Shown here one piece after another: positions 8,177 through 62,380 of a DNA stretch of 64,000 nucleotides; the first letter of the stretch is position 1, and every line of letters begins with the position of its first letter. Both the position numbers and the translations under genes were made by a program. Source of the stretch: Symbiodinium sp. CCMP2592 (Eukaryota; Sar; Dinophyceae; Suessiales; Symbiodiniaceae); the NCBI GenBank assembly GCA_905221615.1, contig CAJNDT010005323.1, positions 384,520 to 448,519 on the forward strand. Reading direction: 5' to 3'. The notes under the pieces were generated by a model. The model ran no database searches. It was not told the origin of the DNA and was given only the letters and a program-made list of their open reading frames with translations.

Positions 8177-8840
8177 CTCACGCTAGCTTCGATTCAGAGA
8201 ACCTTAAATCTTACGGTCATGAGAATCCTCAGACAGCAAGCCTGTCATCCACATTCAGCCACAAAACCTCGACATGTCACTGGAGATGCATCCACCAAAA
8301 CACGGCAGTAAAAGCGGCCTGTGGTATTCGAACAAGAGATGCTTCGCCAAAGCTGTCAAGACGCCTCACTCATGTCCAAAGCTGCGGACTTTGGGAGTTT
8401 TGGTTTAAGCCGTTCGGGGGACTATTCAAAGCATGACGCCCTGTGCAACAGCTTACATCAACACGCGGTTGTGGAGGCATGGCATTTTAGAAGAGGACCT
8501 GTAAGCTTCCAGCTCGTGACCTTAACACCCATGCATCTTTCGAAACCCCCAAACCGACAAAAGGGCCGAAAAGCAATCGGACCCTTCTGACATCCGGGCC
8601 CAACTCCCGAACCCATGTAGCCTGCTAATGGCTTCCTCTTGGCCATCTCTAAAATCCAAAGCAGCTTCTCCAAATCCGTCCGCTTATTACACCCGAAGGA
8701 ACACGTGTTTAAAACCCATACAAAGCCACGAGACCCTCCCTCTGAGTAGCTGAGTGCAGAGCTTGACATCCGCACATCGGTACTCCATGCGCTCAGCGTA
8801 GCCGTGGCGCTCCTGAGAAGCCGGGCTTTGATGACAACCC

Positions 8841-8951
8841 AGAGACTCCAATATTCCTTAACTAAGGAATATACCTTAAATTATAGTAGGATCTCTAATA
8901 TGATTTAGGAAATATTTAAATATTCCTTCATTAAGGGATATTGGAGTTTCT
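8841..8951. mobile_element. 111-bp foldback (MITE-like) element
   Basis: Two 32-bp arms (8,841-8,872 and 8,920-8,951) are inverted copies with 28 of 32 matches, beginning AGAGACTCCAATATTCC on the left. Each arm itself contains a smaller palindrome; in the left arm, ATATTCCTTA and TAAGGAATAT surround an AC centre. The 47-bp interior is AT-rich. The element is much more AT-rich than its surroundings. I see no open frame and no clear target duplication, so the superfamily is unknown. Confidence 0.7.
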
Positions 8952-10070
8952 GGCTAAGCTGCCTGTGACATCCGAAAATGGGGCCCTAGCGCCTGCTGAG
9001 TGCGTTTACGATGCTAGACGTGATCGCTCTCCAGTGACGCATTCAAGTTTATTTGGCTTGCGACATGTCACGAACAGGCATCCTGGAAATTGAGGACATG
9101 ACAGCTTCAGAGATGCAGAACTAAAAGTCCGAGGCACTGCGATGTCTTTGGCGGATGCCTTTGGGATTCGAGGCTCTGGAACAATCAAGTTTTGGAGAAT
9201 GTGGTAAGATTTCGGCCAGGTTACGAGTCAAGTGTGGGGTTCATGTCCTGGCATCTCCCATTTGAAGCCCTCCCTCGAAAACTTCGTCGAGCATCGACCC
9301 TCTTGCAAGCCTGAACAAACCCGTCGCCATCGTGCCCCAACTTACCCAGTAAATTCTGCGTGCGCTTGACCTTAAAAGCCCAAGCAGTTGGAATCCCAAA
9401 CCCGCAAGTCCTGAACCCGAAGCCCGTACTGTTCAACATGCCACCACCATGGACTCGCACAGGATGTCGAAGAGCAGGCAGCGGGAAAATCCGAAAGCCA
9501 GTGCGAAAATGCAGTCCTTCACAGGGTTACGAAGTCAAGCTTGGGACTTAGGGTCTGTAAGAGCACCTCACATGTCGGACACCCGCTGAGTTCAATGGTC
9601 TAAGCGTAAACCCCGCGACATCCTCGCTGTTTTGAACCTCGCAGTCTAAATCACCGTAAGCCCTACTCACCCCAACACTGAAACCCCAAAGTCAGTCTGA
9701 ACCCGAGACCTTGAGTCCAGAAGCCCCAATCCTGCCTCACCCAGACCCGAGCCCAGCGTCAGCAGCACGCCGCCGCGCGCGGCGCGGAGGGCCGGGCGCT
9801 GGGCCATGGCCTCAGCGAAACGAGGCCGGACACCCCTTTTTTGTTTAATCTTCGGCCTTTGAGAGCTTGGGCATTTACGCTCTCACAACTCGGACACAGC
9901 CAGGCGCTTGGGCATTTAGGGCCTCGGCGTTGCCGGGATGAGATGCAGGTTAGGTGCAAAGCATGTGGAGCAGTTCCTCCGGACGTTTATGGTTTCTGAT
10001 TCCGGTGACCTTAGACCCTCTGTCGGCACTTGCATTGTTACTTTGCAGTCGCCTTCGCAGTAGTAGTCGT
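8952..10070. other. No gene seen
   Basis: Unique sequence; frames of 60-80 codons only, none coherent. Confidence 0.4.
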
Positions 10071-26437: not shown

Positions 26438-28249
26438 TTTTTTTTTTTTTTCCTCGGACCTTTTTGCAAGTCTCCCGGCGCGGTCCCAGTGCAGCAAGCT
26501 ACCGGAACCAACCAAAAGTCCAGAACCAACCAAACCCCCAACCTCCTAAGAACGAAGCGAAGCTCACCCCATGCGGGAGGTGAGAGGAGGCGCCTCCGAC
26601 GAGTCGGCAAGGACATCGCTCAAGAGAGGAGCCTCGCCATCGAGATTGGCAGTGTTGGAAATCGGAAGGGACAGCAGGCTGGCAGCGAAGGAGCGTGCAG
26701 CAGCGATGGAGAGAAGCCCAGACCATCGTGCGACAAAGGCGGCGACACACGCTGCGCGCTGGGACGCGGCGGCACTGCGTGCTCGCGCCCGCGCGAGCAA
26801 CCGAAGGAAGTCGGCAGCTTCGGCACTCCAGCGACCACCAACTTCAAGACCGAGGACAACCAGGCGACACCGACGGGCGTCGGCGAACTCAGGGTAGGTA
26901 CGTTCTTTGGCCCTGCGCGCCTCGGCCAAGGCCGCCCCGGCAGTGCTGCCGCGCCGGCGCCGGGGCGCACCAGCAGAAGTAAGTGGCGAGACGAGCGTAG
27001 TGTCAACGGCAAGCTGCGAGCCTCCCCACAACGGCAGCCCATTGGCGATCACCTCGATGCGGCGCTCATCATGCCTGGATGCCTGCAGGTTCAGGTCTCG
27101 AACTAGGACGTGTGTGGCGACTGCAGCACCGGCCTCACGGCAGACCCGAGCCGCTGCACGTTCGAGCGGTCCACCTCGTGCCCTGAGAACGCCAGACCGA
27201 GGACAGGCAGCGATGTGGTCACCCAGGGCATCCTGCGGACGCCCACAGCGGCATCGCGCAGGTGCAAGTGGCAAAGGGAGCCGCAAGCGACGGAGGAGTA
27301 GGACCCGGAAGAGCGCAGAGTCGAGGGCGAGCTCAGGAGCAACAGGTCGGACAGTGAGCAACCTGGCGGCGAAGGGGCCGGATTGTGAGTCGAGGAGTGC
27401 GAGTTCAGCAGGCCCGACGGCGCGGCGGTGCGCGACCGAGGCATGATCGTCGAGGGCGCGGGATGCAGAGCGCTGCCAGCCGCGGTAGGGGACATCAGGC
27501 TCGGCATCGTCAGCGGCGGGCGCCGGGCCAGGCTGGGGCAAGTCGGCCCACCGTGGGACCGCAAAGCCAGCCTCAGCAAGGGCGTCGGAAGCTTGTACTA
27601 GGTCCTGCACAGGCGACCAGTCAACGCCACGGCCATCGTCCAGGGCTTGCACCAAGGAAGTAGCAAGCGCGGCGTCCCGTACACGAAGGACGGCGACTGC
27701 GTCAGCCCAGGACGCCCAGAACGCTGCAGGCGCGTGCAAAGCAGCACTGCGCAAGCCAAGACCACCATGACGGAGGGCAAGTTGTGCAACACGGGCAGCG
27801 GCCGGTGGCAAGGGGGCAGGCCCCTCGGCAAGCAACAACGCACTCAAGGTTGTGAGTACACGAGCATCGTGTGTGCGTGCAAACTCCTGAGTCAGGCGAG
27901 GTGGAAGAGTGCGCAAGGCAAACTGGGCGCGAGGGGCAGCTGTGTAGAGAAGCAATAGCCACGAAACCTGAGTGTCACCGAGTCCGGGTAACGACGCGAG
28001 GAGAGCCTCGTGCCGATCAGCAAGGATTTGCAAGTGCCTCGCTACAAACCGCGGTTCCCCGAAAGGAGTACCTAGCAGCACGATACCGCGTGAAGAAGGC
28101 TCCAGGGCAGGGTCCCCGAACCACACACGGGCAGCCGGCGATAGCTCGCCCAGTCCCTGAGGGGTAAGGCCAGCGCCGTTCCAGATGGCGGTCTTATCTG
28201 TTTGGTTATGAGTCCCGGGGCCTAGTGCTGGTGGGCAGGTACTGGACAA
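26438..28249 (-). mobile_element. 5'-truncated non-LTR retroelement, copy A
   Basis: On the minus strand a 561-codon open frame (28,249-26,564) is followed by about 110 bp of 3' UTR and a run of 14 A (26,451-26,438). Family-like sequence begins around residue 18, just past where the RT YxDD box would be. The copy therefore looks like a 5'-truncated, poly(A)-tailed insertion made by target-primed reverse transcription. Coding capacity past the truncation is fully open, unlike every other copy in the window, so it is the youngest member here. Confidence 0.75.
26564..28249 (-). CDS. RT C-terminal half plus probable restriction-like endonuclease
   Basis: 561 codons. Residues 41-64 (VWFGD... GIVLLGTPFG) match the post-YxDD region of non-LTR reverse transcriptases. 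Residues 90-190 look like the thumb/connection region with a GGLGLRSAA block (162-170). A CRC...GDH...C knuckle (C333, C335, H345, C349) precedes a segment with ERRIEVIANGLPLWGG (395-410), LAVDTTLVSPL (413-423), AKERTYPE (447-454) and LEVGGRWS (468-475). By position and motif order this resembles the C-terminal restriction-like endonuclease of R2/NeSL-type elements, with E399, D416 and K448 as possible PD-(D/E)XK residues. That assignment is inference. The first 18 residues are probably flanking sequence, and catalytic RT boxes are missing, so the product could not act as an RT. Confidence 0.7.
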   Translation of the reverse strand: MSSTCPPALGPGTHNQTDKTAIWNGAGLTPQGLGELSPAARVWFGDPALEPSSRGIVLLGTPFGEPRFVARHLQILADRHEALLASLPGLGDTQVSWLLLLYTAAPRAQFALRTLPPRLTQEFARTHDARVLTTLSALLLAEGPAPLPPAAARVAQLALRHGGLGLRSAALHAPAAFWASWADAVAVLRVRDAALATSLVQALDDGRGVDWSPVQDLVQASDALAEAGFAVPRWADLPQPGPAPAADDAEPDVPYRGWQRSASRALDDHASVAHRRAVGPAELALLDSQSGPFAARLLTVRPVAPELALDSALFRVLLLRRLRLPLPLAPARCRCGRPQDALGDHIAACPRSGVLRARGGPLERAAARVCREAGAAVATHVLVRDLNLQASRHDERRIEVIANGLPLWGGSQLAVDTTLVSPLTSAGAPRRRRGSTAGAALAEARRAKERTYPEFADARRCRLVVLGLEVGGRWSAEAADFLRLLARARARSAAASQRAACVAAFVARWSGLLSIAAARSFAASLLSLPISNTANLDGEAPLLSDVLADSSEAPPLTSRMG

Positions 28250-28782
28250 GGTGCGGGCATCAAGGCATCAAGGGTCGTGAATGGCGCCAGGAGCACCACC
28301 CCTTTTTTCCCCCGCCTGGTGGCCCTAGGGCGACAGTGCCGTGCAATGTTGAGGCAGTATGTGCATTCATACTCTTGCAGTTGGCAAATCCAAATCTGCA
28401 GGGACACCTTCGTCGTCACACTCTCTCTGTCTATACTGGAAGTAGGGTGACTACTGCCGTGACCATTGGAAATGACTGTGGCTGTATGCCGAGCAGTTGC
28501 TCGATGTCTGGGGGGCTACCAACCACTTCGACGACGTTGGCGACGACGACTCCAATACTGCCACTTCTCAGCGTCATGTTTTCTACGGTTGTGCAGCGGC
28601 TTGGGTCTCCGGTTGGCTACGGTTTTTCGATGGCCTTGCTGAAAATGCGCCTTGGACGCATGTGACTCATGTGTTGACGCTGCTACCTGGTCGCTGATCC
28701 TCTTTTAATCACGATCGTCATCGTTGCACACCCATTTCAAGTTTCAGTTTGTTTTAATTGCCCAGGCGTTCTACCATATCAA
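28250..28782. other. Flank of retroelement copy A
   Basis: No gene. A motif TTGGCGACGACGACTCCA (about 28,536-28,553) followed by TACTGC recurs at about 32,063-32,086 beside another retroelement fragment. The stretch may be a remnant of a related insertion. Confidence 0.35.
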
Positions 28783-32980: not shown

Positions 32981-33226
32981 CGGCCCCCATCCCCGCGCCG
33001 AAGGAGGCTACAACGCGGAATCGGATGGCGAGAGCACCGCCGCGGGGTAGCTTGACACTCCCAGTCACTGAACACGTGCGTCGTGCGATACCAAGCAGCA
33101 CTTCGGCCCCCATCCCCGCGCCGAAGGAGGCTACAACGCGGAATCGGATGGCGAGAGCACCGCCGCGGGGTAGCTTGACACTCCCAGTCACTGAACACGT
33201 GCGTCGTGCGATACCAAGCAGCACTT
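32981..33226. repeat. Exact 123-bp tandem duplication
   Basis: Two adjacent copies (32,981-33,103 and 33,104-33,226), each beginning CGGCCCCCATCCCCGCGCCG, look identical by eye. 123 bp is 41 codons, so any frame through it is preserved; the minus strand gives a repeated 41-residue peptide. The identity implies a recent event. Confidence 0.95.
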
Positions 33227-34267
33227 CGTCAGCGAGGCATATGCTCAAAGTCACAACGGTGAAAAGCCCGAGCATCGGAAGCCCCATGCCGACCAGACAA
33301 CCGAACGACTCCAACAGCACTCACGCCAACCGGAGCGACGATTGTGAAGCTGCCTCTGCAACAGAGGGAAAGATGCAACCACTGCCTTTCCCAAGACCAG
33401 GGAGCAACTTCATTCAAACCGAGCTCTTTTCAATCATTTACGAAATGTCCACAAAACATCATTCCAAACACCGCTGTTTTTACGACGGAAAAACACGATG
33501 CAAACTACAAGCCGTACCATACAGCGCTATGACCGAACATGCTGGCATACCTGCCTAAAAGCTCGGTGTTCAAGCGCAACGGCCACCCGACCAAAGGTCC
33601 GAGGTTTACCTCGACTCACAACCCCGAAAAAAATTGGAGCACCGAATGTTCATCCTGAAGAAAACATTGGAGCACCGAATGTCCTCATCATCAAAGTAAG
33701 GACGAAGAGTCTTTTGTTGAGCAACTGTACGATCGTCCATGAAAATGGACATGACACCACTGCCGGTAACGTTGCCAGTACAGTCCGTCGCGCGATCAAC
33801 CAAATGGCACAACTCACAGGACCAAACGGACCCCCCTTGCGGCAACGTCCAGTTTGCACACTTCCGTCCCGTGCCATGCAGTCGTTTGCACGGGGACCTG
33901 GGGACCTTGATTTTTTTCGCGCAAGAAACAACGACGAAGACTGCCGCTTGACAATGGTAAGGGCGAAAACCAACCAATTGAAATCTTTTTCTTCGTCACG
34001 CCATCTTTCAGACAGTATCCGTGGTCCCAGTGCAGGAAATAGGTGACTTGTGGATGCCTCTGGCTCGGGCGAACACGATACTCCAAGTATCCGACCTACA
34101 GCGCGCGTGGCTGCCGTTGGCCTTGTGCGCGGCTCCGCGGGTTGCCCACGGCACGTGTATATACCTTGAGCTCGGCCAGGAGGTGCTCATGCGGCACCGA
34201 GCGCCTTGATTGCGAGGCTCGCCGGTAACAAGGTTTAGCTCGCAAGCTGCACGGGAACACGTGCACG
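33227..34267. other. No gene seen; small 36-bp direct repeat
   Basis: TTGGAGCACCGAATGT occurs at about 33,635 and 33,671. No coherent coding sequence. Confidence 0.4.
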
Positions 34268-43599: not shown

Positions 43600-45588
43600 T
43601 GGTTTTCACCTTTTCCGCAGGGTGAAAGGAGTCGGTTCGAGTTCTCTCTTTCCGGCGAAACTAGCGGACGGCGCAATCGCCAATGCACCAGCATTCATTT
43701 GAGCATTCGCAAGAAGGCCTTTCGCAAGGCTTGCAATAAGGTTCATAGAACACAAGAAAGCATCCCGTACCGGAATGGTACGTTGACGCCTGAACATCTG
43801 CGTCGCAGTGGACTCACCCCCCCCTCCCCTCCCCCCCTCCCAGTGCAGCCTAGCTCCACGATTTCTCCTTCAGGTCCCTCAGGTTTCTCCGCCAGTTTCC
43901 GCTCGCGCCCGAGAGGCGGTCGTGCCAGCAAGTCTCTTCGTGTTCTTTCCTGGAATGCAGGGCACCTTGGCATGCAACAATGGGCAGAAGTGAAGACATG
44001 GCTTCGCACGGAGGCCAAGTCAGTCTGTGACATTCTTGTCCTTCAGGAAACCCACTGGAGTGAGACAGCAGAATTTGATGTCGAAGGCTGGCACTGCGTA
44101 AGCTCCGCCACAAAAGGGGCTGCTCGAGCACCTAAAGGTAAAGCCACTTCAGGGCAACGCCCCAAGCAAGGCGCTGCCACGCAGCCGGCTGTTCACGACA
44201 CAAGCCGAGCGGACGGCGTCATGGTTCTTCTCTCTCCGCAGATAGACAAGAAGAAGATAAGATGGCGCGAGCAACGCCGGGGAAGGCTCATTCAGGTCAT
44301 CTTCCCGTGGCTTGGGGCTCGTGTGCATGTACTAGCGGTTTACCAACATGCCTGGTCTTCTAAGAAGACTCCACAGCAGAACAAGGATGACCGCTCACAC
44401 CTGCTCCGCGATCTGTCGGCTGCGATACGGGCCATTCCAGCGCGAGATACTTTTCTCTTGGCAGGAGACTTTAATGCTCGACTGACCCCGCAGGAGGGTC
44501 TGGTAGGTCAGTGTAGCACCAAGCCAGAGCAAACTCAGATGCAGGATGAATCGTTCCAAGCCTTAGTCTCCTCCCATCGGTTGGTAGCTCTTAACACATG
44601 GTCTAGTGGTGCAGGTCACACTTTCTTCCTGAATGGTCAGGGATCACAAATTGACTTCCTGCTCACTTCAGAAGCCTCGGCCAAGGGCCTGGCAAAGCAG
44701 TCTCGGCCGTGCAAGGATCTTCAGCTCGGCAAATGGAAGAGGGGCGGCCACCTTCCAGTCTTGGCTCAACTCAGACCCACCCAGCACTGGAATCTGCCAA
44801 AGCCTACTTGTCCTTCCACGACCTTTCATAAGGAAGCTCTAGAGACGGCTGTCCGTTCAGGTCTGCCAATAGCCGGTCGCATGCAAGACTGGGTGGGCCA
44901 GCGTCTGTCCTCTCGGACTCACACGCCTGATGAAGTTAATCAGGTACTGCTGGAGGCCTCTGCACTGTTTTTCCCCAAACCACGGCCTCAGCAAGCTCCT
45001 GAAACTGCTCAGCACCGTGCGACGCTGCGAATGTGGAGTCGAGTCGCTCATATTCGTTCTTTGCATGAGGACTCCATAACCACCTTATCCGACCTAGATC
45101 AGTCTTTGGAGGACCTGAATCGATGGCATAAGCAGGCTCTCTACTTAGCCAAGAAGGAACGACACCGAGCTTTCCAGGCTGAGGTCGATGAGGCGTGTGC
45201 CAGACACGATTCCTACATCGCACATAAGACCTTAAAGAAGCTCCGACCTTGGGAACCCCAAACTAAGGCACAGCTTCAGGGACCGGATGGTCTGCTGTTG
45301 GACTCTACCTCTGAGCTCCGCCTGCTTAGAGACCACGTGGAACAGGTCTTTGCCAGACATCCGCCACTCGCACACCAGGTGGACTCGCTGCCGGAAATCC
45401 CGGCTGGTCTGCTGGCCAAGCACATAGGCTCCATCAGACCGCACAAGGCGGTACCGCAAGGCTCTGCTCCGGCGGCTGCCTGGCGGCTCTGCTCGGCGGC
45501 TACGGGAGAGGCGCTAGCAGCATCGCTGCAATCTCGGGGGCAACGCCCATTGCATTGCCGGCGGCTGAGGTACTTCAGCCGCCCTTAA
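43600..45588 (+). CDS. LINE endonuclease and RT N-terminal region
   Basis: The frame is open from 43,600 with no obvious ATG; counting from a TTG at 43,699 gives 629 codons. Residues 5-35 (KKAFRKACNKVHRTQ... YRNG) form a basic leader, followed by a Pro/Ser linker. The endonuclease spans about residues 80-355: LSWNAG (83-88), LQETHW (115-120), AGDFNARL (255-262), QIDFLL (317-322) and GGHLPV (349-354). These correspond to the catalytic Asn, Glu, Asp/Asn, Asp and His positions of the exonuclease-endonuclease-phosphatase fold; the last is GGH rather than the usual SDH. A Lys/Glu-rich helical region follows to about residue 570, and IRPHKAVPQGSAPAAAW is the start of the RT fingers. The frame then runs into a stop at 45,586. 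Confidence 0.85.
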   Translation, partial: WFSPFPQGERSRFEFSLSGETSGRRNRQCTSIHLSIRKKAFRKACNKVHRTQESIPYRNGTLTPEHLRRSGLTPPSPPPLPVQPSSTISPSGPSGFSASFRSRPRGGRASKSLRVLSWNAGHLGMQQWAEVKTWLRTEAKSVCDILVLQETHWSETAEFDVEGWHCVSSATKGAARAPKGKATSGQRPKQGAATQPAVHDTSRADGVMVLLSPQIDKKKIRWREQRRGRLIQVIFPWLGARVHVLAVYQHAWSSKKTPQQNKDDRSHLLRDLSAAIRAIPARDTFLLAGDFNARLTPQEGLVGQCSTKPEQTQMQDESFQALVSSHRLVALNTWSSGAGHTFFLNGQGSQIDFLLTSEASAKGLAKQSRPCKDLQLGKWKRGGHLPVLAQLRPTQHWNLPKPTCPSTTFHKEALETAVRSGLPIAGRMQDWVGQRLSSRTHTPDEVNQVLLEASALFFPKPRPQQAPETAQHRATLRMWSRVAHIRSLHEDSITTLSDLDQSLEDLNRWHKQALYLAKKERHRAFQAEVDEACARHDSYIAHKTLKKLRPWEPQTKAQLQGPDGLLLDSTSELRLLRDHVEQVFARHPPLAHQVDSLPEIPAGLLAKHIGSIRPHKAVPQGSAPAAAWRLCSAATGEALAASLQSRGQRPLHCRRLRYFSRP

Positions 45589-46889
45589 AGGATGCTGACT
45601 TGTGTTTTATCCCAAAGCCTAACAAGCCGGCCACGAAGCCTGGCAATCTACGTCCCCTCGGCATCATTCGACCAGACGGCAAGGGCCTGGCGGGGGCTTG
45701 TAGAGATCAGCTGTCTCCCTACACGGCTGACTATCTTCGGGGTCTCCCACAATTTGCCTACCAGCCACATCGCGGTCTTTCAGATGCCTTGAGCAGGGTC
45801 GTTGGTCATGTCACTCAGGTACGCAATAACTGCCAGGAGGCCCGACGAACCAGGCATCAGCTTCACTCGGGACGAACTCGTCCCCAGCTAGTAGGTGGCA
45901 TCTGCTTTGCACTAGACTTGTCACAAGCCTTTGACATGGTGAGCAGAACAGACTTGCTTAGCACACTGCAGGAAGCGGGAGTCCCGCAAGACCTCATTGA
46001 CTTAGTTGCCTCATTGCATGCTGGCAGTGCTTACACGTTTCGCACCCAGGGTGAAGAGGACACGGTCCAGTCCACTGCGGGCATTAAACAGGGGTGTAAG
46101 CTTGCCCCCACACTTTTTTCCATGCTTACGGGCACCATCTTCCGGGAGCTCATAGCTCTTGTTGGGGTTCGAGCCGTGGTGGACTACCTCACGGGCTACG
46201 CAGATGACCTTACGGTTCACCGTGACATCCACTCAATGGAGGACCTGGGTCGCGCTCATGCTCTGATTGAGCAATTGTTGCAGTTGGTCCGTCGCCATGG
46301 ATTTGCTGTCAACGGTGCAAAATGCACTGTTATGGTCAAACTCGAGGGCCAACAGGCGCAACGCGCCATCTCCAAGCACACTTATTGGCGCACCGCGCCT
46401 GACGGAACCCGCCATAAGATGTGGAGACTGGGAGAGTCCAAGTCTCACGAGGGCTTTCCGCTGGTGACGTCCTTTAAGTATCTCGGCGTCACGCTCTCCT
46501 ACTCCAACTTCGAGAAGGCTACTCTCAAGTTCCGGTTGCAGGAGGGCAATGTGAAATTGCAGCAGGTACGCCGCTTCGTTCACAACAGACGAACGGCGGG
46601 GCCTGCATCGCGGTTGCACATTTGGCATAGCACTGTCTGGGCCACAGTGGCCTCTGGATTGGTGGATGTGGGCTTGACCCTAGAGACAGCTGAACTGTTG
46701 CGGGCTTGGCACGCTCGCAAAATTCGAGCTGTCCTGAACAAGCCAGCGCACCTGACACACATATCCACGGCTGACCTCTATGCCTCCCATAAGATCATGG
46801 ACCCTGTCCGTAAGCTGCAGGCGCGACAGGCCAATCGTGTCAAGCGCTTAGGTGCTCGCGCTTCTCCAGGCGGAGGCACTCTCTACTAG
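45516..46889 (+). CDS. LINE reverse transcriptase
   Basis: Family-like sequence starts at about 45,516, upstream of the TTG at 45,555, overlapping the previous frame. From 45,555: DLCFIPKPNKP and NLRPLGIIRPDGK (fingers), motif A DLSQAFDMV (D at 45,915), motif B GIKQGCKLAPTLF (about 46,080-46,118), motif C YADD (46,197-46,208), and a thumb/connection region with FKYLGVTLSY (about 46,470-46,500). Motif A Asp and both motif C Asp residues are present, so the catalytic centre is intact. The frame ends at TAG 46,887; the natural continuation is in the next frame from about 46,852. Confidence 0.88.
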   Translation, partial: SSIAAISGATPIALPAAEVLQPPLKDADLCFIPKPNKPATKPGNLRPLGIIRPDGKGLAGACRDQLSPYTADYLRGLPQFAYQPHRGLSDALSRVVGHVTQVRNNCQEARRTRHQLHSGRTRPQLVGGICFALDLSQAFDMVSRTDLLSTLQEAGVPQDLIDLVASLHAGSAYTFRTQGEEDTVQSTAGIKQGCKLAPTLFSMLTGTIFRELIALVGVRAVVDYLTGYADDLTVHRDIHSMEDLGRAHALIEQLLQLVRRHGFAVNGAKCTVMVKLEGQQAQRAISKHTYWRTAPDGTRHKMWRLGESKSHEGFPLVTSFKYLGVTLSYSNFEKATLKFRLQEGNVKLQQVRRFVHNRRTAGPASRLHIWHSTVWATVASGLVDVGLTLETAELLRAWHARKIRAVLNKPAHLTHISTADLYASHKIMDPVRKLQARQANRVKRLGARASPGGGTLY

Positions 46890-47538
46890 TTATGCAGACG
46901 TTCTGCAGCAACTTTCTAAGGACACATCACAGCAGGAGCCCCCCCCGGCCTTCGTGTGCCCGACGTGTGCTCAGGCCTTCGACACTAAGGTCGGTCTTCG
47001 CACCCACCAGGCCCGCAAGCATCCAGGCTCGGTCATCAGATATGTCCCTCGAGGCTTCTCCCACACCCTCTCTGTAGAAGGGCTCCCCAAGTGTGCGGCC
47101 TGCAACAGGCAATTCCCTGAGATGAAGGGCTTAAAGAACCACTTGCTATCAGGTGCCTGCACGGAGCCAGCTAGGCTACAGGAGCTGGATGACGCGGCGC
47201 ACCCTTCCTTGGATTTGCAGCATCAGTCCAGATTGCATCCCAGGCAGCAGCGCTTGCATGACACTTTAACAACACACACGGCTATGGAGCTCGGACGATC
47301 TGATGAGTCTTAGGACCTTATGTCACATTGCTTGCTGTGTGGGTTCTGGACCCCGGACAATACCAAGCTCAAGTCTCACATCCGGCAGACCCACAAACCT
47401 GAATGGGCGGCTCATGGCGCCACAGCTGCAACTCAGAGCAGCAAATCAGCGCAGGCGCTCGACAATCATAAACCCTACATGGTAGAAAAGAGAAAGGTGT
47501 TGCCTTATCATGTACGACTTGGCGACAGTGCATACTGA
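46852..47538 (+). CDS. LINE C-terminal zinc-finger region (one in-frame TAG)
   Basis: Starts in the frame after the RT (GTG at 46,852). Finger 1: C36-x2-C39-x12-H52-x4-H57 (FVCPTCAQAF...). Finger 2: C81-x2-C84-x12-H97-x5-C103, a CCHC variant. A TAG at 47,311-47,313 interrupts the frame; six bases later it resumes as MSHCLLCGFWTPDNTKLKSH with finger 3 (C-x2-C-x12-H-x4-H), ending at 47,538. Such fingers near LINE C-termini probably bind the RNA or the target. The last 20 residues do not look conserved, and the 3' end may be altered. Confidence 0.75.
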
Positions 47539-50671: not shown

Positions 50672-50863
50672 CATGCCTCAGTCTCAACAGCAGTTGGAAG
50701 CTTGACAGTCTGATGATGTCACTTTAGACCAGGGCCGCACAATCACGTCTGCTGCTTCCACTTTTGGCAAAGGCAAAATGCGGCCCTTAGGAAGCGGAAC
50801 GGCTTTTTGGAGGCAAAACCTCAGGCATTACCCCATAGACTGGGTTAGCCCAAAAGTTAACTA

Positions 50864-50901
50864 TTAGTTAAAATTTTGGCTGGAGCCAAAATTTTAACTA
50901 A
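50864..50901. repeat. Perfect 18-bp-arm palindrome inside the TIR element
   Basis: TTAGTTAAAATTTTGGCT (50,864-50,881) and its exact complement (50,884-50,901) flank a GG centre. It lies directly inside the left terminal repeat. Confidence 0.95.
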
Positions 50902-50952
50902 AAAAGGAACCCTACAGGAAGGACGCAGGGAGCAAAAAGGGAACACGTAGAT

Positions 50953-51031
50953 CTCCAAAATCACAGTTTTGAAATGGCGCTGTGATTTTGGATATGCTCA
51001 ACCTGCGATTTTGGATATCATATCCAAAATC
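50953..51031. repeat. TGTGATTTTGGAT inverted repeats, left cluster
   Basis: The motif TGTGATTTTGGAT and its complement ATCCAAAATCACA occur in both orientations. GATTTTGGATAT-C-ATATCCAAAATC (51,007-51,031) is a perfect palindrome with 12-bp arms and a one-base centre. Confidence 0.93.
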
Positions 51032-51068
51032 ACAGGATTTAGTGAACTCGTTTGGGCCCGGGCGAGGC

Positions 51069-51446
51069 CGAAGTTTCGACGAAACTTCGTCGAAGTTTCG
51101 GCCCCTCACTGGTCGAAGTTTGAAGGGTGCCAAGTCGAAGTTTGGTCGAAGTTTCGTCGAAAGTTCGACCCCCACAAGTCGAAGTTTCGACACCCTACCG
51201 GTCGAAGTTTCGATACCCTACCGGTCGAAGTTTCGACACCGAGGTCGAAGTTTGCAAGTTGTGATATTACGATTCACTGCAAGGGTTGCACTCTTAGTTG
51301 ATTGGTGTCGAAGTTTCGGCTCGAAACTTCGACTTGGGGTGTCGAAGTTTCGACCCAAGGGGGTGTCGAAATTTCGACCTGGGGGCGTCGAAACTTCGAC
51401 CCCCGAGGAGTCGAAGTTTCGACCCCTGGGGGTCGAAGTTTCGACC
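51069..51446. repeat. Array of GTCGAA/TTCGAC palindromes
   Basis: About 18 occurrences of GTCGAAGTTTCGAC or close variants, in both orientations (GTCGAAACTTCGAC). GTCGAA and TTCGAC are exact complements around a 2-nt centre, so every copy is a palindrome. Spacing is 10-25 bp, with C- or G-rich linkers such as CACCCTACCG and CCCCTGGGG. A 45-bp non-repetitive gap (51,257-51,303) splits it into two halves. The translated frame (VEVSTP-like) is a by-product. Confidence 0.95.
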
Positions 51447-51462
51447 CCTGCCGGGCCAGACC

Positions 51463-51629
51463 TAGATCCAAAATCGCAGGAATTCGGGAAGTGTGATTTT
51501 GGATTTAAATCCAAAATCACAGGTTGAAAATAAAACTGTGATTTTGGATCTGGGATCCAAAATATGGCGCTGTGATTTTGGAGAACTTGACGCTGGGATT
51601 TTGGATATCATATCCAAAATCACAGGATA
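51463..51629. repeat. TGTGATTTTGGAT inverted repeats, right cluster
   Basis: Contains a perfect 30-bp palindrome (51,492-51,521, 15-bp arms, TGTGATTTTGGATTT and its complement). It also has an imperfect one around GGATCTGGGATCC (about 51,537-51,564) and a second exact copy of the 25-bp GATTTTGGATAT palindrome (51,597-51,621). The clusters flank the GTCGAA array on both sides. Confidence 0.93.
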
Positions 51630-52189
51630 AGATAAATATCTTGAATTCCTGTGATCCAGGAGATCCCCCGGTGTTCTGGCAAAGATAACTTTCGGCCTAA
51701 CCCGGTCTATGGGGTAGCTGCCAAAACAAGGAGCTTCCGCAGTTTTAAGCCTCCGAAGGCAGGGTGCAAAATCACGTCTGCTGCTTCCACGTGTCACAAG
51801 GGCAAAACGCGGCCCTTAGGAAGCGGAACGGCTTTTTGGAGGCAAAACCTGGCATTAGCTGCCAAAAGAAGGGGCCTCCGCAGTTTAAGCCTCCAACGGC
51901 AGGGTGCAAAATCACGTCTGCTGCTTTCACTTCACATCTAGGGCGGCATCATCACTGCTGCTTCACTTTAGAGCCAGGGCGGCATGATCACGTCTGCTGC
52001 TTTCACTGTCGGGCAATGGCAGCCACATCACGTGTGCTACTTTCCGGTGCGTGGGCTTCTGAGCAAGTTCTACTGGCTTTCAACCCTGCCATTTCGCGCC
52101 GCGATTACATTTCATAGCAGCGGTCGCCTACCCAGATGATCTTCACATTGGCATTGAGCCACTTGCGAGGCACCCATTCAGCAACGCAC

Positions 52190-61199: not shown

Positions 61200-61860
61200 G
61201 ATTTAGTAAGGGATACATATAGAGAACAGAATACCGTAACAAATACCCCCCTATGCATACCCCATAGACCGCCTTCTACAATACCCTGTGGAGTAACCTA
61301 GAGAACACCGTTTAGGCTGCCTTATAGAACAGTTTATAAAATTCCACTGATACATGGAATACCATTTGGAATACCCTGCAGAATACCTTATAGACGACCA
61401 CTCATACCTTGCATATGCCGTATAGAAAACCCATAGATTACTTTTAAAGATACCCTTTAGAATCCCCTTTGGAAGAGAGTACTCTACATGGGCCTGTGAA
61501 GAATCAGGAACCAAGCAGAGGAGCTTTACAACGACCTTATAGTATACACCCTTTGTATACCTTGACGGATTTAAAATAGAATACCCCATAACATACCCGC
61601 CTAAATATAGGCTACAGAATACCTTTTGTACAATGAAGCACCCGTGAGAAAACCTGAAAGCGTGCAACCTGCCTGATAGGTATAGAACGCCATCTGGAAT
61701 ACCCTGTAGTAGAATACCTTACAGAAGATGGCCTATGTAATATACCCTCTGCCTACCTTCAATATACCTTATAGATATCTTCTAGAATACCGTGTAGGAT
61801 ACCCTTTAGAACACGTTATAGGATATCCTATAGCATACCCTGTAGATAACGGTTAAAATG
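61200..61860. repeat. GAATACC-rich degenerate AT repeat
   Basis: GAATACC or close variants (GGAATACC, GAATACCTT, GATACCCT) recur more than a dozen times in 650 bp, with CCTTATAGA and CCTNTAGA blocks between them. There is no fixed period, consistent with an old, eroded short-unit repeat. It is sharply more AT-rich than its left flank. Confidence 0.75.
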
Positions 61861-61883
61861 AGGAAAATCAGGAGGAGCACACT

Positions 61884-62168
61884 TTTTTCTGAAGCGACAC
61901 CCTTCGGAAAATTTGGTGCTATCGAACCGCCCTGCTTGTTGTCCGTATTTGCCAAGCATACCACGGCGGTTCGATAGCATCAATTTGTGAAGCAAACCCT
62001 TCGGAAAATTTGGTGCTATCGAACTGCTGTCTAAGGTCTGGAAGATACAGCGGTTCCGATAGCAGCACGTTTTCTGAAGCGACACCCTTCAGAAAATTTG
62101 GTGCTATTGAACCGCCCTGTCGAATTTGCAACAGATAACACAGCGGTCCCCTAGCAACAGTTTTCTGA
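61884..62168. repeat. Three tandem hairpin units
   Basis: GAAGCGACACCCTTCGGAAA, then ATTTGGTGCTATCGAACCGC, begins unit 1 (about 61,890). Unit 2 begins at about 61,987 and unit 3 at about 62,076. Each is followed by an inverted tail. In unit 1, GCTATCGAACCGCC (61,918-61,931) pairs perfectly with GGCGGTTCGATAGC (61,965-61,978). Units 2 and 3 have imperfect equivalents. Confidence 0.85.
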
Positions 62169-62231
62169 AGGAAGCGGGTGAGGCGACAGCACGGATTTGG
62201 CATCTTTTGGACAAGTAGCTGAGTACATACC

Positions 62232-62380
62232 AACCCTATTGAGTTCAACAGGCCTTTTGAATTCAATAGGCATCCCGGATTGAAAATTGAAGATCTCACA
62301 GAAAAACGTTCCAGGGCCATCTTCAATCTTCAATCCGACAGCCCTATTGAATTCCAGAGGCCTATTGAACTCGATAGGGC
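62232..62380. mobile_element. Foldback element with ~67-bp arms
   Basis: The left arm (62,232-62,298: AACCCTATTGAGTTCAACAG...) and right arm (62,313-62,380) are inverted copies, roughly 85% identical, around a loop of about 14 nt. Each arm contains smaller palindromes around GAATTC (TTGAATTCAA in the left arm). No open frame and no clear target duplication. Either a small foldback transposon or a hairpin repeat related to the units just upstream. Confidence 0.75.

Follow-up and report, generated by a model that had tools for sequence, protein, structure and literature searches.

An 884-bp DNA element lies inserted in one unit of a tandem repeat in the 64-kb window (the whole stretch of Symbiodinium sp. 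CCMP2592 DNA that was analysed). The element, its borders and the corresponding empty site are the following:

50831..51714, forward strand: whole inserted element, 884 bp
50829..50830, unstranded: left copy of the target duplication, TA, 2 bp
51715..51716, unstranded: right copy of the target duplication, TA, 2 bp
50831..50862, forward strand: left TIR, 32 nt, with the tip ACTGGG, the left end of 15/15 complete copies
51683..51714, reverse strand: right TIR, 32 nt, with the tip ACCGGG, the right end of 15/15 complete copies
51851..51863, forward strand: empty target site GGCATTAGCTGCC, located in the following unit of the host repeat

Including the TA, the ends span 50829-50862 and 51683-51716, are separated by 820 nt, and match in inverted orientation at 30 of 34 positions; an earlier reading of this DNA from its letters alone (the sequence-only reading) had recognized the inverted 34-bp ends and counted 29 matches. 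Among random TA-anchored pairs drawn from the window (up to 300,000 sampled), the best score was 28/34, and beyond the arm the inverted match ceases, with only 8 of the next 38 nt agreeing. When the window was scanned for inverted pairs with TA on both sides, five rows resulted, comprising the element ends twice, one pair inside the element and two of unrelated sequence, and the same scan of ten random controls yielded none. When fused through a single TA, the flanks align with the next host unit at 163 of 177 identical columns, and the joint is exactly the empty site GGCATTAGCTGCC (51851-51863). The host unit spacing is 143 bp once 886 bp are removed, and the next unit measures 140 bp. Because the fused flanks reproduce the neighbouring empty site, the 884-bp insertion is real and its borders are exact to the base, bearing out the sequence-only reading on the presence of the insertion, its base-exact borders, and its position in one repeat unit beside an empty one. 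Local folding without insertion, which that reading had also discounted, is rejected, as the fused flanks align to the empty next host unit.

The interior of the element is composed largely of short repeated and palindromic motifs:

50864..50901, unstranded: perfect 18-bp hairpin next to the left end, inside the stretch common with the left end of a giant relative
50953..51038, unstranded: left subterminal cluster of the 13-nt motif TCCAAAATCACAG, 4 copies in both orientations, at most 2 mismatches
51062..51448, unstranded: array of the 10-nt palindrome CGAA-NN-TTCG, 15 copies
51466..51628, unstranded: right subterminal cluster of the 13-nt motif TCCAAAATCACAG, 7 copies in both orientations, at most 2 mismatches

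From left to right, the order is TIR, hairpin, TCCAAAATCACAG cluster, CGAA-NN-TTCG array, TCCAAAATCACAG cluster, and TIR. The palindromes follow one another mostly at steps of 11 or 21-24 nt, with larger gaps of 56 and 83, and their array forms two inverted halves about a 66-nt centre (51241-51306). The element folds from end to end far above shuffled sequences, with z-scores of -22 as DNA and -26 as RNA (20 shuffles each). The subterminal motifs are putative protein-binding sites. In addition, the 9-mer CAAAATCAC occurs ten times in window positions 50956-51915, eight copies lying in the element's clusters and two in the adjoining host units, with none elsewhere in the window.

Several other features of the window were recorded. 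Two more palindrome-rich patches at 61876-62380, one of ~50-nt units at 88-97-nt steps and one a hairpin with 61-nt arms at 85%, belong, after the element itself, to the strongest-folding parts of the window. A degenerate array with a TACCCTATAGAA-like unit occupies 61210-61850, and its unit at 61258 matches the right tip of the element, TACCCCATAGACCG, over 14 nt, a striking likeness, yet probably one that arose by chance within the array. A 115-bp MITE-like hairpin at 8839-8953 has 34-nt arms (88%) and no obvious target duplication, and 32981-33228 is a perfect 123-bp tandem duplication (two copies, 100% matches). A LINE-type retroelement with overlapping ORFs lies at 43600-47313 on the forward strand, encoding an endonuclease domain (PF03372, E 1.7e-13), a reverse transcriptase (PF00078, E 2.1e-24) and a C2H2 finger; its protein had no match among phages. 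A 567-aa open frame on the reverse strand (26567-28267) has no Pfam match at E 0.001. The Pfam scan of the window took in seven of its 168 ORFs. The 21-nt dinoflagellate spliced-leader sequence occurs exactly 429 times in the genome (reversed control, 0), which marks the host as a dinoflagellate, with none in a scan of the window.

Further copies were sought in the whole genome (1,098,105,373 bases in 5,383 contigs). The 18-nt tip of the element, with one mismatch allowed, occurs 39 times, and the reversed control pattern 0 times. Pairing of the 39 tips by the analyst gave 15 inverted pairs, representing complete elements, and 9 single ends; the duplication table comprises the 15 complete copies, the nine single ends being left out. 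Two of these (C2005 and C557:11,246) have common flanks and were counted as one site, giving 15 copies at 14 sites. The complete copies fall into three size classes, namely two of 882-884 bp, six of 692-715 bp, and seven giants of 15.6-18.7 kb. All 8 short forms were read whole, six giants in two overlapping stretches each, and one giant (C5102) at its ends only; among the giants, ORFs and repeats were studied in the C557 copy only. The termini are CCCC...GGGG in 15/15 complete copies, and the six giants with flanking sequence read differ from one another in it. Each of the 15/15 copies has a target duplication of exactly 2 bp, and a third base is equal in 0/15. The duplicated dinucleotide is TA in 9 copies (8 sites), CA in 4, TT in 1 and TC in 1. 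The sequence-only reading had proposed checking the genome for further copies of the end pairs, and the 15 complete elements answer that check; its TA on both sides is correct at the window site and fails as a family rule, since 6/15 copies have CA, TT or TC. It had also named as support many TA-flanked copies together with a longer DDE-encoding relative: 15 copies and a giant with a candidate gene were found, with TA flanking only 9/15.

Among the short forms, the C5063 copy (G000:C5063) is full-length at 882 bp and 94.8% identical to the window element. Five 715-bp copies are mutually 99.3-100% identical. A simple left-right fusion does not account for the 692-715-bp class, as C2005 has 76 bp between the end blocks that come from neither, and the 715-bp class is a derivative distinct from the 884-bp one. 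The left arm is identical to that of the window element in 6/6 giants with ends read, and the right arm in 5/6, with one change in C140. Because the left and right arms of the giants equal the respective arms in the window, the four mismatches between the window arms mostly reflect an asymmetry fixed in the family and not decay.

The C557 giant (C557:1267647-1283329, ~15.7 kb, read in two stretches) matches the window element in three segments:

50829..51144, forward strand: match to the C557 giant, left end, query 1-316, 96.2%
51128..51423, forward strand: match to the C557 giant, middle array, query 300-595, 88%
51384..51717, forward strand: match to the C557 giant, right end, query 556-889, 95.8%

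Palindrome arrays are located near the left end, in the middle, and near the right end of the giants, and local alignments of the joints place the overlaps of the three segments in such arrays. The middle segment corresponds to a piece ~7.7 kb inside the giant; as it is only 88% identical to C557, the direct parent of the 884-bp element is not among the examined copies.

Across the left 8 kb, the five other giants are 97.1-99.4% identical to C557 in single alignments. The right halves are less uniform, with C5244 at 99.4% and the other four matching C557 in pieces of 86-99%, and extra sequence is present in the right halves of C381 (~2.9 kb) and C3391 (2.5 kb). The near-identity of the giants suggests recent movement. 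In the left half, substitutions are fewer in presumed coding than in non-coding sequence in 5/5 comparisons. In the right half, this holds in 2/5 only, the remaining 3/5 being reversed (2.4-2.6% vs 0.5-1.3%), apparently because one repetitive ORF diverges strongly in three copies. Nonsynonymous and synonymous counts per ORF were too few to show any selection. Three other ORFs of the giant, all on the reverse strand (L024:6184-7162, L025:1776-2669 and L025:4736-6520), have no Pfam match at curated cut-offs; the one at L025:1776-2669 is repetitive and strongly variable among giant copies.

The left half of the C557 giant contains a candidate transposase gene. On the minus strand, successive open stretches carry HGDDVP, GDLDY followed by CPLC, KFHLLQH, and WCFSGED, and all D-D-C(2)C-H(3)H-E motifs are found in open stretches presumed to be exons. 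The second stretch (the GDLDY/CPLC exon) matches at least 133 places in the genome (133 scored among 804 candidates); among the matches listed, 11 have exon identities of 98-100% and belong to the same family, and the others range from 36 to 52%. In 15/15 fetched relatives, C(2)C follows the invariant D of the GD motif by 19-20 residues; H(3)H was found in 13/15 and the E motif in 10/15, several frames ending before these motifs, while the frame of L067 is long enough to include H(3)H and lacks it. The first D motif is present in 2/2 relatives with frames long enough (HGDGVP and HGDETP). D and E residues of these motifs are assigned as putatively catalytic from position and conservation, and the gene is predicted to encode the transposase of the giant. 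It also shows what we take to be a resemblance to plant CACTA transposases around DYMH and WCFSGED, a lead only. The sequence-only reading had anticipated a longer relative with a DDE-type gene, and the giant holds such a candidate, with the D-D-C(2)C-H(3)H-E signature.

Pfam searches up to E 10 with 16 members (the 15 relatives and the C557 exon) found no transposase family; five families gave chance-like matches, each in one member among the 16, with a best E of 0.029. Two long frames matched nothing in Pfam up to E 10, and ten ORFs of the C557 giant matched no family at the curated cut-off, the best being RelB_leu_zip (E 1.1e-4, 22.5 bits vs 27). Annotation relying on Pfam would therefore label these genes hypothetical. 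Sequence searches of the PDB with the candidate transposase gave nothing below E 0.6, and one exon modelled from its sequence alone reached a mean pLDDT of 36, so that this model was discarded.

A second subfamily was recognized among the relatives. Beside the gene, four copies of the group at 36% exon identity agree with the C171 copy at 99.9-100% along 1.56 kb, and they end jointly at ACCCTGAGTCTGCTG (L081:3744 onward), with different flanks. The 18-nt ACCCTGAGTCTGCTG tip occurs 84 times in the genome at no more than one mismatch, 79 of them exact, and the control occurs 3 times. The opposite end and target duplication of the ACCCTGAGTCTGCTG subfamily were not found, and the 2-bp rule is therefore documented in one family only.

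The 884-bp element is very probably a non-autonomous deletion derivative of the ~15.7-kb DNA transposon family, mobilized in trans by the transposase of full-length copies. It has the properties of a MITE, including TIRs, a target duplication, no transposase gene, and ends in common with an autonomous-type giant; the non-autonomous status given to it by the sequence-only reading agrees with the match of its ends to a longer, gene-carrying giant. That reading had also described an interior unlike any known MITE, an oddity now accounted for by the palindrome arrays of the 15.7-kb relative, because the interior is built from the end and middle arrays of the giant. A parent carrying palindrome arrays at its two ends and its centre would have lost two internal segments, with the deletion joints inside arrays, so that the left end, middle array and right end remained; array-array recombination or replication slippage may have caused these deletions. 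The transposase presumably encoded by the candidate gene would recognize the 32-nt ends, perhaps aided by the two clusters of 13-nt motifs and the regularly spaced palindromes, and would excise the element and reinsert it with a 2-bp stagger, a cut-and-paste mode to which the anatomy points. The short forms, retaining all such sites, would ride along in trans.

An alternative scenario is that the short element is ancestral and the giants arose by gene capture between its ends. The two 884-class copies are indeed more diverged from each other (94.8% identical) than the left halves of the giants (97.1-99.4%), and the short form is therefore not young. However, the piece from ~7.7 kb inside the giant is explained by two deletions and not easily by capture, and the candidate gene is present in relatives from other subfamilies and is therefore older than the family of the 884-bp element, making this order of events quite unlikely. 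It is very unlikely that the interior is a satellite or hairpin-forming element of its own, nested within a plain MITE; the end-to-end folding of the interior, and the palindrome clusters of other sequence elsewhere in the window, would fit such nesting, but the same arrays recur in three regions of the giants (left end, middle and right end) and therefore belong to the family, not to a local insertion. A Tc1/mariner- or Stowaway-type MITE, targeting TA and moved by a Tc1/mariner transposase encoded elsewhere, would agree with the TA duplication at the window site and in 9/15 copies and with a short, palindromic element, but it is extremely improbable given the CA, TT or TC of 6/15 copies, ends that match those of a giant with C(2)C and H(3)H in its gene, motifs assigned to the CACTA-Transib group in the accessible part of PMC12730594, the lack of a Pfam transposase match in the scanned members, and the lack of a Tc1/mariner gene among the ten scanned ORFs of the C557 giant.

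The centre of the middle array occurs in both orientations among the giants. In C557, C5244 and C3391 this 83-nt centre runs forward, in C140, C1058 and C381 it is inverted (six giants), and its alignment score against the C557 centre is 166 in four of the other five giants and 161 in C5244. In C557 it is flanked by inverted arms of 71 nt at 90%, and inversion likely occurred via recombination between these arms. A central palindrome in both orientations offers a natural test system for the behaviour of palindromes in dinoflagellate chromatin.

Searches beyond the genome gave no match in phage and plasmid DNA collections, and none in Rfam at the gathering score. In viral contigs, most scans returned 0, and one returned 9 stretches, none of them confirmed. 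The element tip occurs 0 times in prokaryote contigs; the array motif was found there at three Nostoc loci, taken as chance because the two that were read are short tandem repeats of other make-up. Among the titles listed in literature searches, none describes the 884-bp element, which is weak evidence of absence; searches with its DNA motif words matched two papers at one word each, both unrelated by title, and those with peptide words gave none.

Dinoflagellate genomes are huge, and to our knowledge their cut-and-paste transposons are poorly catalogued. To the catalogue this family would contribute precisely defined ends, the parent element, a candidate transposase with at least 133 places in the genome, and near-identical copies, together with a case of a deletion derivative assembled from repeats inside its parent. 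The short element itself is of an ordinary kind, and the deletion-derivative type is already known; new are a giant, recently spreading group, a transposase that Pfam does not recognize, and a central palindrome in two orientations.

Among known systems, foldback elements (Tetris, Galileo) resemble the 884-bp element in their inverted end regions with internal repeats and their ORF-less copies, as far as described in the accessible part of PMC4079207. However, Tetris has 8-10-bp duplications according to the same portion of that source, whereas the duplication here is 2 bp, the inverted end spans 32 nt only, and the repeats are motifs of 10-13 nt; the element does not qualify as a foldback element. 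Introners share a non-autonomous nature, inverted ends and occurrence in dinoflagellate genomes. In the accessible part of PMC9860276, however, those of S. microadriaticum are described with duplications of 4 bp and a 3' splice site, whereas the 884-bp element is larger and has a 2-bp duplication; with this other duplication length, and no suitable GT seen by eye at the left border, an introner is also provisionally rejected. Nothing here speaks for DNA elimination of the kind known for ciliate TA-bounded eliminated sequences, so far as these are presented in the portion of PMC9942856 consulted, and this candidate was set aside. Tc1/mariner MITEs and Stowaway are likewise short, with TIRs and, at the window site, a TA duplication, but the duplication in this family is not confined to TA and the motifs of the parent gene are different ones. 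Strict TA targeting, as in Tc1/mariner, is excluded by the non-TA duplications in 6/15 copies, and the Tc1/mariner- or Stowaway-like assignment made by the sequence-only reading is abandoned on these and on the C(2)C and H(3)H of the candidate.

En/Spm elements have short motifs repeated near their ends and defective derivatives that arise by internal deletion, and the subterminal repeated motifs and the internal-deletion derivative described here resemble them in both respects. In the accessible part of PMC12730594, the CACTA/EnSpm-Mirage-Chapaev-Transib group is characterized by target duplications of 2-5 bp (2 bp in PlavakaA, TA in ESTA) and by C(2)C and H(3-4)H between the second D and the last E. 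The 2-bp duplication of 15/15 copies lies inside this published range, and the C(2)C (15/15), H(3)H (13/15) and E motif (10/15) of the relatives of the candidate gene conform to the published motif order as given there. On these motifs, the candidate enzyme likely belongs to the CACTA/EnSpm-Mirage-Chapaev-Transib group. The termini differ, being CCCC...GGGG here and CA...TG in most members, a mismatch that is not strictly defining because the same source gives CA...TG only 'in most cases' (PMC12730594). The family also differs from the CACTA group in having perfect-palindrome arrays not only at both ends but also in the middle, where both orientations occur, and in a candidate enzyme without a Pfam match. 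The giant transposon group may be a new superfamily. In its full form this proposal is tentative, possible rather than probable: giant dinoflagellate cut-and-paste transposons with a deeply diverged, Pfam-invisible transposase that would stand beside CACTA/EnSpm/Transib, recently active subfamilies with tens of near-identical copies, palindrome arrays at the ends, and an invertible middle switch that may govern gene-half expression or end pairing.
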